Of a stretch of 42,849 nt of DNA, positions 18,082 to 26,401 are shown piece after piece. The first letter of the stretch is position 1. Every line of letters begins with the position of its first letter. The stretch covers positions 1 through 42,849 of the forward strand of contig PGXU01000023.1 in assembly GCA_002839335.1 (NCBI GenBank). Direction: 5' to 3'. Position numbers and translations under genes: made by a program. Origin of the DNA: Spirochaetae bacterium HGW-Spirochaetae-4 (GTDB lineage Bacteria > Spirochaetota > Spirochaetia > Sphaerochaetales > Sphaerochaetaceae). The notes beneath the pieces are model-generated. The model made no database searches. It was given only the letters and a program-made list of their open reading frames with translations, and had not been told where the DNA came from.

Positions 18082-18135
18082 TGCGGCAGACTGGACTTGA
18101 ACCAGCACAAGCTCTCGCCCACTAGCACCTCAATC
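18082..18135 (-). other. Prophage attachment site: 3' half of a tRNA-Leu(GAG) gene
   Basis: On the minus strand the sequence runs from an anticodon loop reading GAG, through the end of an anticodon stem (GCTAG), a type II variable arm and a T-arm (CTGGTTCAAGTCCAG), to the acceptor end CTGCCGC plus A. The 5' half of the tRNA is missing: to the right the sequence changes to AT-rich phage DNA. Phages that integrate into tRNA genes leave exactly such a fragment at one end, and the phage-borne copy restores the gene at the other. The intact tRNA-Leu should therefore sit at the right end of the prophage, beyond this window. Confidence 0.8.
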
Positions 18136-24562: not shown

Positions 24563-24652
24563 GTTGTAATTATACTTTACCGGTCTACCTGCGTATACAA
24601 AAAGTTTAAGAAATATGTTGACATTACTACTTATGTAGACAATAATGGGCAC
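24563..24652. promoter_or_regulatory. Divergent lysogeny-switch promoters with operator-like repeats
   Basis: Rightward: TTGACA (24618-24623), 17 bp, AATAAT (24641-24646), six bases, then the ATG at 24653. Leftward: TATAAT (complement of 24569-24574), six bases, then the repressor ATG at 24562; its -35 (TTGTAT, 24595-24600) is weak and at 20 bp. GTAGAC occurs at 24635 and 24677 and inverted (GTCTAC) at 24583, and GTATACAA occurs at 24593 and 24667. These repeats are candidate operators for the repressor or the ribbon-helix-helix protein. Both mRNAs appear leaderless. Confidence 0.65.
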
Positions 24653-24928
24653 ATGGAACAAAAACTGTATACAATGGTAGACAGGACGAGCATGGTGAGA
24701 GTCACTACTCTTTCTTCAGAAGAGAGGGAATTGGCAAATCATGCTTCAAGGCTCTTGGGTCTGCGCAAATCAGAATTCTACCGCCGAGCAATAATCGAGA
24801 AAGCCCAGTCAGTCCTTTCATCAACAATCAATGGACCCAAAGAGGCATATTCTGTCCGTGAACCATCGCGGAATGAAGGTGCCTCTTTTTTGTCGGAGGA
24901 TAGCCATGACACTGCTAACGACCACTGA
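24653..24928 (+). CDS. Ribbon-helix-helix-like regulator (Cro position)
   Basis: In this 91-residue protein, residues 13-55 (SMVRVTTLSSEERELANHAS, then LGLRKSEFYRRAIIEKAQSV) look like a short beta strand followed by two helices, as in Arc/CopG or DUF1778-type DNA-binding proteins. It occupies the place of cro, directly right of the repressor, and may counteract it. The tail (60-91) is polar and probably disordered. No ribosome binding site is present; the promoter places the transcript start at the ATG. It overlaps the next gene by 23 bp. Confidence 0.55.
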   Translation: MEQKLYTMVDRTSMVRVTTLSSEERELANHASRLLGLRKSEFYRRAIIEKAQSVLSSTINGPKEAYSVREPSRNEGASFLSEDSHDTANDH

Positions 24929-25088
24929 AGCTGCCCAATATCTCCGCTATGCGCCTTCTTACCTAAGGAAACTGGTGATGCTGAACAAGGTCCCGTACAT
25001 CAAGTTCGAAAAGGCAGTCAGGTTCAAGAAGGATGATTTGGACAAGTTTATAGATGACCATCGTGTGGATGCTAGATCAGCATACTGA
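24906..25088 (+). CDS. Excisionase-like helix-turn-helix protein
   Basis: The 60-residue protein consists of a single MerR/excisionase-type winged helix: TTTEAAQYLRYAPSYLRKLV, then KVPYIKFEKAVRFKKDDLDKF. Such small proteins bind and bend DNA; in phages they act as Xis or as early regulators. GGAGG lies six bases before the ATG at 24906. The longer frame from 24831 overlaps the upstream gene and is rejected. If it is Xis, the TGGTGTCA boxes beside attL are a natural target. Confidence 0.7.
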   Translation: MTLLTTTEAAQYLRYAPSYLRKLVMLNKVPYIKFEKAVRFKKDDLDKFIDDHRVDARSAY

Positions 25089-25276
25089 TTTTTCTGATAA
25101 GGGTCTGCCGTAACTGACAACTCCATCCGGTGAGTCGTCCGGATACTAACGTCGGCCCGTATGGGTGGCGTACTCCAAATGGATATCGTTATACACATCA
25201 AAGTCGGACGGGGTTACGTCAAACCTTCATTGGCCGGAGTGGCACACCGGGAGATCCGCGAAACGTGCTGGATTTG
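25089..25276 (+). other. Intergenic stretch with hairpin and weak small ORF
   Basis: A 6-bp stem ATCCGG/CCGGAT (25125-25130 and 25139-25144) is visible, with further short inverted repeats. A 41-codon frame (25161-25286, ATG to a stop inside the following tRNA-like gene) has host-like codons but no ribosome binding site, so I do not call it. It is the front part of a roughly 700-base zone dominated by RNA structure. Confidence 0.4.
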
Positions 25277-25373
25277 GGGACCGTAGCCCAGCTGGTTGGG
25301 GCACCGGGTCGAGGGTTAGTACACCACCCATCGTCAACTCCGGGGGACGCAGGTTCGAATCCTGCCGGTCCCA
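25277..25373 (+). ncRNA. tRNA-like gene 1 with a 30-nt anticodon loop
   Basis: The acceptor GGGACCG/CGGTCCC (25277-25283 and 25366-25372) with A73, the D-arm GCCC-AGCTGGTTG-GGGC, and the T-arm GCAGG-TTCGAAT-CCTGC (25349-25365) are perfect and correctly spaced. The anticodon stem CCGGG/TCCGG (25304-25308 and 25339-25343) pairs, with a normal 5-nt variable region ending in C48. But the loop is 30 nt (25309-25338) instead of 7, and contains its own small stem GGGT/ACCC (25313-25316 and 25326-25329). No seven-base loop with T33 can be drawn, so an anticodon cannot be read. No CCA is encoded, as in the host tRNAs. It may be a degraded tRNA, a tRNA with an insertion, or a tRNA-shaped regulatory RNA. 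Confidence 0.7.
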
Positions 25374-25391
25374 TCAAACAGAGGAGGTTCT

Positions 25392-25532
25392 ATGACAGCG
25401 TTCGCAAGTACAGTGATCGGATTGTTCCTGATAGCCATCGGGGTTGGACTGTATCTGATCGTGAAGGTTGGCGCCATGAGCGATAGCGATCGGGAATCCT
25501 ACGGCCATGGTCCGAAGGGTCAGGGACGATAA
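25392..25532 (+). CDS. Small membrane protein, 46 residues
   Basis: An ATG four bases behind a perfect AGGAGG starts a 46-residue protein with one membrane helix (about residues 6-26, TVIGLFLIAIGVGLYLIVKV) and a polar, Gly/Ser-rich tail. The gene lies between the two tRNA-like genes. Its function is unknown; phage early regions often carry such single-span proteins that act on the host membrane. Confidence 0.65.
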   Translation: MTAFASTVIGLFLIAIGVGLYLIVKVGAMSDSDRESYGHGPKGQGR

Positions 25533-25534
25533 CA

Positions 25535-25661
25535 GCGGCTGCCTGTAGGGGTGCCGCATCCAATGAAAATTGGTGGAATATGGCCTTTCCCTGCTGGTCA
25601 ACGAGTAAAGGGGGCGTCCTGTGAGGACGTAAATATCACGATACAGCCCGGTGACACGGGC
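25535..25661 (+). ncRNA. Row of hairpins upstream of tRNA-like gene 2
   Basis: Four stems follow in 127 bases: GCGGC/GCCGC (25535-25557), CCAAT-GAAA-ATTGG with a GNRA loop (25560-25573), CGTCCT-GTG-AGGACG (25615-25629) and GCCCG-GTGACA-CGGGC (25646-25661). No coding frame with a ribosome binding site crosses them. The density of stems suggests a folded RNA, perhaps co-transcribed with the tRNA-like gene that starts six bases later. Confidence 0.5.
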
Positions 25662-25666
25662 ATTTC

Positions 25667-25777
25667 GGGACCGTGGCGGAAATGGTAGATGCCCGGATGG
25701 AAACCGCAGGTCGAAAGCAGTACCTGAGCAATTACATCCGGTCTTAACAAGTGCAGGTTCGAATCCTGCCGGTCCCA
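25667..25777 (+). ncRNA. tRNA-like gene 2 (type II) with a 37-nt anticodon loop
   Basis: The acceptor GGGACCG/CGGTCCC, A73 and the T-arm are identical to tRNA-like gene 1; the last 25 bases of both genes are the same. The D-arm (GCG-GAAATGGTAGA-TGC) and 12-nt variable region with a CTT/AAG stem resemble type II (Leu/Ser) tRNAs. The anticodon stem CGGAT/ATCCG (25694-25698 and 25736-25740) encloses 37 bases holding a second perfect stem CAGGT/ACCTG (25707-25711 and 25722-25726). In an alternative fold, ATGGAAA (25697-25703) would be a Ser loop reading GGA, but its stem would have only three pairs and the variable arm would be far too long. Confidence 0.7.
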
Positions 25778-25805
25778 TACATGACACCAGATCTAAGGAG
25801 GCAAC

Positions 25806-26132
25806 ATGAAAGACCTGTATCTTACCGGTCCGATCACACACAACAAACAGGCCGAGGATCAATTCGGGAAAATATCCGAGATCCTCAGGTCGGCGGGGTA
25901 CACCGTGGTGAATCCCTTGGAATTGGACCATCCTGCAGAGGCCACATGGGAAACCCATATGGCGATCGATATCAAAGCGATGATGGACGTACTCCTCTTT
26001 GGCGGGGAACTTGCCATGGTCGATACCCATCTGCCTTCGAAGGGCATGGCGCTGGAGATCTCCATAGCCGTATCGCTGGGGGTGCCGGTCAGGCCGTGGC
26101 TCGATTACCTCGAGGAAGCGCTACGGCCATGA
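25806..26132 (+). CDS. DUF4406 protein (nucleoside 2-deoxyribosyltransferase-like fold)
   Basis: The 108-residue protein follows AAGGAGG at optimal distance. The start (KDLYLTGPITHNK) and the middle (AGYTVVNPLELD, then DIKAMMDVLLFGGELAMVDTH, then SKGMALEISIAVSLGVPV) match the DUF4406 pattern, a Rossmann-like fold related to nucleoside 2-deoxyribosyltransferases, common in phages and often annotated as a nucleotide-metabolism protein. Activity is not established. It overlaps the HNH gene by four bases (ATGA). Confidence 0.75.
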   Translation: MKDLYLTGPITHNKQAEDQFGKISEILRSAGYTVVNPLELDHPAEATWETHMAIDIKAMMDVLLFGGELAMVDTHLPSKGMALEISIAVSLGVPVRPWLDYLEEALRP

Positions 26133-26401
26133 AGAAACGGAAAAAGCGGGGAATCTGCAGGCGCTGCGGGAAGTACGGATCCACCGAATGGCACCATGTC
26201 TTCGGCGGGTGTTTCCGGAAGATTTCCGAACGGGAAGGATTTGTGATGGAGCTCTGCCACGATTGCCATATGGAGTTGCACGACACACCCGGTATCGGCC
26301 GGGTATACAAGGAGCATCTCCAGAGGGAATGGGAAGGCAAGCCTGGTCGAAACCGAAATGGATGGATGAGCCTGATGGGCAAGAGCTGGTTGGTGGATTG
26401 A
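26129..26401 (+). CDS. HNH-like zinc-binding protein
   Basis: The 90-residue protein has two CxxC pairs (CRRCG near residue 10, CHDCH near residue 45) around WHHVFGG and followed by MELHD. This is the layout of small HNH or treble-clef nucleases encoded in phage recombination and replication regions. The start at 26129 overlaps the preceding stop and is chosen over the much longer frame from 25751, which would cross the tRNA-like gene. Nuclease activity is inferred only. Confidence 0.65.
   Translation: MKKRKKRGICRRCGKYGSTEWHHVFGGCFRKISEREGFVMELCHDCHMELHDTPGIGRVYKEHLQREWEGKPGRNRNGWMSLMGKSWLVD

Follow-up and report, generated by a model that had tools for sequence, protein, structure and literature searches.

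Two elements in the early gene block of a Spirochaetia prophage look to be tRNA-shaped, non-decoding RNAs that have apparently been kept by selection, not decayed tRNA genes. Judging from comparative sequence data, we consider it an evenly balanced proposition that they act as RNase P / RNase Z processing signals and so punctuate the polycistronic message transcribed from the early genes of a temperate phage. Both lie on the coding strand in the window, by which we mean the whole 42,849-nucleotide stretch analysed here, part of the 3.6-Mb genome of Spirochaetae bacterium HGW-Spirochaetae-4 [Table 1]. The prophage spans roughly 18-43 kb or more of the window and encodes, among others, a helix-turn-helix (HTH) protein, a replication initiator, a DnaC-like loader, a ParB-methyltransferase, a terminase, a portal and a major head protein.

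The tRNA-like shape of the two elements is confirmed at positions 25277-25777, where the original prediction had located two tRNA-like genes. Both exceed the gathering score of 29 bits of the Rfam tRNA model (RF00005) in cmscan, element 1 with 53.8 bits (E 6e-9) and element 2 with 35 bits (E 9e-4). ARAGORN called all five ordinary tRNAs found at 9.4-10.0 kb of the window and called neither element as a tRNA; its tmRNA search of the window was likewise negative for both, and neither the reading frame of a tag peptide nor the tmRNA fold was found in them. The acceptor stem (GGGACCG/CGGTCCC) and T-arm (GCAGG TTCGAAT CCTGC) expected of a functional tRNA are perfect in the two elements, whose last 25 bases are identical, as had been described. 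The other expected feature, a 7-nt anticodon loop with U33, is present in neither, be it directly or after excision of one block. Element 1 has a normal D-arm and an anticodon loop of 30 nt; in element 2, the loop measures 35-39 nt (about 37) depending on where the stem is closed and the variable region is long. These sizes agree with the loops of 30 and 37 nt first proposed, and the further small hairpin that had been noticed inside each enlarged loop is indeed there. The earlier description of all stems as intact is accurate for the acceptor stems, the T-arms and the D-arm of element 1 but not for the D-stem of element 2, which is weak (3-4 pairs) and ambiguous in register. Since the folding energies are unremarkable (z of -1.2 and -2.0 for elements 1 and 2, respectively), the evidence for these structures is the tRNA covariance model together with the comparative data presented below, not their stability.

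Table 1. Positions of the two tRNA-like elements and of the features flanking them in the window.
Feature	Position	Strand	Remarks
Promoter-like site TTGACA-17-AATAAT	24618..24646	+	Upstream of early genes; consensus match only
Helix-turn-helix (HTH_17) gene	24831..25088	+	Upstream of element 1, same strand
Imperfect (bulged) hairpin	25252..25275	+	Just upstream of element 1; fold below strong-hairpin threshold
tRNA-like element 1	25277..25373	+	97 nt; RF00005 53.8 bits; ARAGORN negative
46-aa ORF	25392..25532	+	AGGAGG ribosome site; 19 nt downstream of element 1; homologue in G001
Hairpin GCCCGGTGACACGGGC	25646..25661	+	Ends 5 nt before element 2
tRNA-like element 2	25667..25777	+	111 nt; RF00005 35 bits; ARAGORN negative
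Nucleoside 2-deoxyribosyltransferase-like gene	25806..26132	+	AAGGAGG ribosome site; 29 nt downstream of element 2

A search of the coding strand from 24600 to 26200 revealed no terminator-like site, and both this absence and the common strand place the elements between co-directional genes of one putative transcription unit. In a DNA search, a same-genus genome, G001, was the only close relative to be found. The hairpin preceding element 1 is weakly supported because its outer pairs are broken in this relative. Near the left end of the prophage, the window also contains an isolated tRNA 3' end, GCTGGTTCAAGTCCAGTCTGCCGCA, at 18083-18106 (-), which is probably the attachment site.

Further matches to a 24-mer taken from the T-arm/acceptor end were found in viral contigs, and BLAST searches of the region or of the relatives' elements against annotated phages and plasmids gave no match. 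Relatives were collected as several hundred phage loci anchored on a conserved neighbouring protein, which we take to be DUF2303, and on the terminase. A descriptor combining a 7-bp acceptor stem, a 5-bp T-stem, a TTCRA loop, any interior and a B-box filter, and thus requiring an intact top, recovered from these phages about 30 unique ARAGORN-negative elements, a few of which are fragments of ordinary tRNAs or doubtful cases, versus 0.2-0.3 per shuffle of the same DNA. By chance, the combination of acceptor stem, T-arm and B-box was matched 0-1 times per dinucleotide shuffle of 2.3 Mb. The elements measure 43-144 nt in total, with mutually unrelated interiors of 20-110 nt, and 19 of the 21 in the first set share the strand of the anchoring gene. 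When this protein family served as the anchor in additional Firmicutes DNA (80 loci, 1.3 Mb), one such element was obtained, indicating that they are not general in Firmicutes phages. A clostridial pattern scan of the viral contigs gave no match, and a GGGANYG-type sequence pattern retrieved only the five known prophage elements from 395 Spirochaetia genomes.

Comparison of these relatives bears directly on the possibility that the elements are phage tRNA genes in decay, their lower half lost or scrambled and no function remaining. This is unlikely in our estimation, even though the elements derive from tRNAs and prokaryote genomes often contain tRNA fragments that come from mobile elements (PMC9897764). 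The loss is clearly one-sided, the top being kept and the lower half lost. As the descriptor itself demands an intact top, a mirror search was run for a canonical D-arm together with a canonical anticodon arm, irrespective of the top; this search, which recovers only about half of ordinary tRNAs, found 49 cases with an intact top, three with a broken top and none in the shuffle, so that a canonical lower half under a damaged top is almost absent. Sites picked by synteny instead of by the descriptor display the same one-sided loss, with one partly eroded case (L034, a mini-element with an acceptor mismatch and an odd T-loop) that, together with an acceptor mismatch at the site L028:3748 of the G001 prophage, speaks for decay. 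Homologues with normal 7-nt loops, which had been named as a sign of plain degradation, are absent from the syntenic sites examined; a 10-nt loop in L026, named tRNA-Pro by ARAGORN, and the eroded L034 are mild exceptions.

Where the outer half is kept, its pairs change in compensation and the interiors are exchanged en bloc between flanks that are nearly identical, neither of which is the pattern of an eroding gene. At the site of element 1 in the G001 prophage (L028:1695), some 130 nt upstream are nearly identical and the T-arm is the same, the interior is different, and C-G at acceptor pair 5:68 of one sequence corresponds to U-A in the other. Where element 2 has its counterpart (L028:3748), the preceding 60 nt, which contain the hairpin, show no difference, and the 66-nt G001 element retains a D-arm and has no anticodon arm. 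Two prophages of another genome, G084, carry elements of 138 and 103 nt (L364 and L365) whose flanks match on both sides and whose interiors are unrelated. The interior of L364 recurs in L050; the two elements differ by four changes in 139 nt, two of which form a compensatory change of pair 1:72 and a third of which converts G.U to G-C at 7:66. These observations support the earlier view that the elements are not decayed tRNAs.

The sequences around the elements speak for processing signals. With thresholds for the hairpin and the start codon that were fixed after viewing the same data set, 18 of 32 elements, representing 14 of 27 families, were found to have a strong hairpin ending 3-6 nt upstream of the acceptor stem, the distances peaking sharply at 5 nt, compared with 46/1155 random positions (4%), 43/640 shuffled sequences (7%) and 11/89 ordinary tRNAs (12%), while a Shine-Dalgarno sequence and an ORF lie within 60 nt downstream of 17 of 34 elements, versus 16 of 91 ordinary tRNAs (18%) and 14% of random positions. 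The stereotyped spacing of the hairpin, unlike the surroundings of ordinary tRNAs, is a further argument against decay. Element 2 fits the spacing rule exactly, element 1 has an imperfect hairpin only, and about half of all elements are without a strong hairpin at this distance. A pyrimidine occupies position -1 in 25 of 33 elements.

If the elements are processing signals, the host RNase P would recognise the acceptor/T helix and cut before the first base of the element, leaving the upstream mRNA with a 3'-terminal hairpin followed by about 5 nt. Such an end would be terminator-like and resistant to exonucleases, and would be formed while transcription continues. On the other side, a cut after the discriminator base by RNase Z or by 3' exonucleases would release the downstream mRNA, whose 5' leader would be short. 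The helix formed by acceptor stem and T-arm, with its T-loop, is what such a signal calls for and is present in the elements; the T-loop has been reported to be needed and the D-loop to be dispensable (PMC4919913). Since the excised tRNA-like piece would need no anticodon, nothing would prevent its interior from varying or from accommodating other sequence. Of the roles initially suggested, that of a regulatory RNA may hold in one form only, namely mRNA processing in cis; no antisense match of the interiors to their own phage was found. Counted against punctuation is the interior shared by L364 and L050, which is better conserved than its surroundings, a conservation that simple punctuation does not need. 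Because of this pair, the interior may also carry a payload.

An alternative built on the same observation is that the elements are natural tRNA scaffolds, in which the top half merely ensures that the RNA is processed and stable, while the payload lies in the exchangeable interior and could be an aptamer, a loop that binds a protein or an RNA directed at a host target. The exchange of interiors as cassettes between near-identical flanks would suit a scaffold, as would the single change in about 107 nt of the L364/L050 interior against 104 mismatches in 1280 aligned columns of the downstream flank. We nevertheless find a scaffold role by itself distinctly unlikely, given that some relatives have almost no interior at the same sites (the 66-nt element at L028:3748 and the mini-element L034) and that complementarity of the interiors to their own phage is not above that of shuffles. 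The comparison of the interiors with their own phage, in which no run longer than in shuffles was found for the elements compared, also led us to reject an antisense immunity RNA of the P1 C4 / P4 CI type.

The shared acceptor/T-arm sequence could also be a recombination joint, that is to say a conserved linker for the exchange of phage modules. Several homology blocks between related prophages do end at or inside the elements: those between the window and G001 end at 25287 and 25689, that between L364 and L050 starts 5 nt before the element, and that between L365 and L050 starts inside the element, near the T-arm. A linker acting at the level of DNA needs no RNA pairing, however, yet the acceptor changes are compensatory; it explains neither the strand bias nor the spacing of the hairpin, and the exchange may be a side effect of a sequence similarity that has some other cause. 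We thus attach little probability to a joint. The least probable of the explanations considered, and by a verdict we hold with some firmness, are a tRNA with a small intron, a decoy against anticodon nucleases and an attachment-site fragment. The enlarged loop sits where tRNA introns usually do, and phages are able to make up for damage to host tRNAs with tRNAs of their own, but in neither element does any single-block excision down to 7 nt of loop yield U33, a nuclease would find no anticodon loop to cut, and the relative of element 2 at L028:3748, like several others, is without an anticodon arm, so that the small insertion and the decoy put forward in the original prediction are both unsupported. 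Fragments of tRNAs are common at integration sites (PMC9897764) but keep the 3' part only, whereas here both acceptor strands are present, the 5' strand being kept and covarying, and the elements, two per phage, are internal to the early operon and not at a prophage end beside an integrase. Altogether, decay, intron, decoy, attachment site and antisense immunity fit the data less well than processing signals do.

A precedent for punctuation by tRNA structures exists in mitochondria, where such structures, located between genes on a polycistronic transcript, show RNase P and RNase Z where to cut. The likeness to the phage elements resides in the placement of tRNA structures between genes of one transcript; mitochondrial punctuation, in contrast, relies on decoding tRNAs, whereas the elements described here belong to a phage genome, come after a hairpin and either lack the anticodon half or have another sequence in its place. 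The phi80 M3 RNA and the C4 antisense RNA of P1/P7, both cut by RNase P (PMC11143913), resemble the elements as phage transcripts that are natural non-tRNA substrates of the bacterial enzyme. Unlike these RNAs, the elements sit between genes as repeated modules, and unlike the C4 RNA, an antisense immunity RNA, they have interiors in which no complementarity to their own phage was found. The tRNA-like domain of tmRNA, which is an upper tRNA half without an anticodon arm (PMC3929946), shares that architecture; tmRNA differs in having a tag reading frame, which the elements lack, in line with the negative ARAGORN search.

The streptococcal sRNA SpF41 (Rfam RF02435) is likened to the elements here without any claim of homology, as a phage or satellite RNA in which a T-arm-like hairpin, CCGGTTCGAATCCGG, is closed by a covarying outer helix. 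It is only partly tRNA-like: a bulge interrupts the outer helix, whose register also differs, and the T-loop varies. Its copy at L051:12163-12269 and the homologues of that sequence have a strongly covarying closing helix with a GGAG bulge, and in phage A25, SpF41 is placed before the gene for the terminase small subunit. As the covarying helix differs from the helix of our descriptor, we rejected SpF41 as a full member of the group and retain it as a possible relative.

Extending the proposal from the window to the whole group, we tentatively suggest, with somewhat less than even confidence, that anticodon-less tRNA-like elements are a standard module consisting of a stem-loop, about 5 nt, a top half with an exchangeable interior, and a ribosome site. 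The module, which occurs chiefly in temperate Spirochaetia phages and sporadically in phages of the Clostridia type, would exploit the tRNA-processing enzymes of the host to split early operons into mRNAs that are each stabilised on their own, and may at the same time serve as a scaffold that carries exchangeable payloads of RNA. If this is true, these phages would divide their messages by means of essential tRNA-processing enzymes of the host, as mitochondria do with real tRNAs, and the position of the stem-loop would make the cut mimic a terminator without stopping transcription. It would also explain phage tRNA-like genes that make no sense for decoding and are missed by tRNA finders, and would provide a compact natural design for stable mRNA ends. 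Substrates of RNase P are already on record in phage RNA and in mRNA (PMC11143913), as is tRNA punctuation in mitochondria; of anticodon-less tRNA-like punctuation elements in phages we found no description in the open-access literature searched.

A number of other tRNA-like structures were encountered in the phage loci. A tRNA-like gene with a 20-nt anticodon loop, at L029:12881-12963(-) and identically at L031:4139-4221(-), is located on the opposite strand of a G001-type phage and has no upstream hairpin. On the 317-kb viral contig IMGVR_UViG_3300040801_002079, two phage tRNAs (L022:8671-8758(-) and L023:514-601(-)) possess long variable arms; they have in common with the elements of the window the acceptor and T-arm end, and bear the Lys anticodons CTT and TTT. 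A long variable arm is the class II shape usual for Leu, Ser and Tyr tRNAs, and it is possible that these two are chimeric or recoding tRNAs. Structures between tRNA-like genes at L025:4980-5230(-) (viral contig IMGVR_UViG_3300048912_000251) have closing stems apparently far longer than 7 bp, as exemplified by GGAAGCCACGGCGCCGAC ... GTCGGTGCCGTGGCTTCC around a T-arm, and appear as unusual tRNA-like RNAs of a GC-rich phage. In two Clostridium prophages (L165:10985-11195 and L184:11875-12090), similar stem-loops, GCAGGGATTAAGTTCCCTGC and GGTAGGATTAAATTCCTACC, precede tRNA-like elements, and in the first of these a similar stem-loop also precedes a normal tRNA-Asn. A 52-nt mini-element of the same two prophages displays paired double changes in its acceptor stem and inner hairpin.
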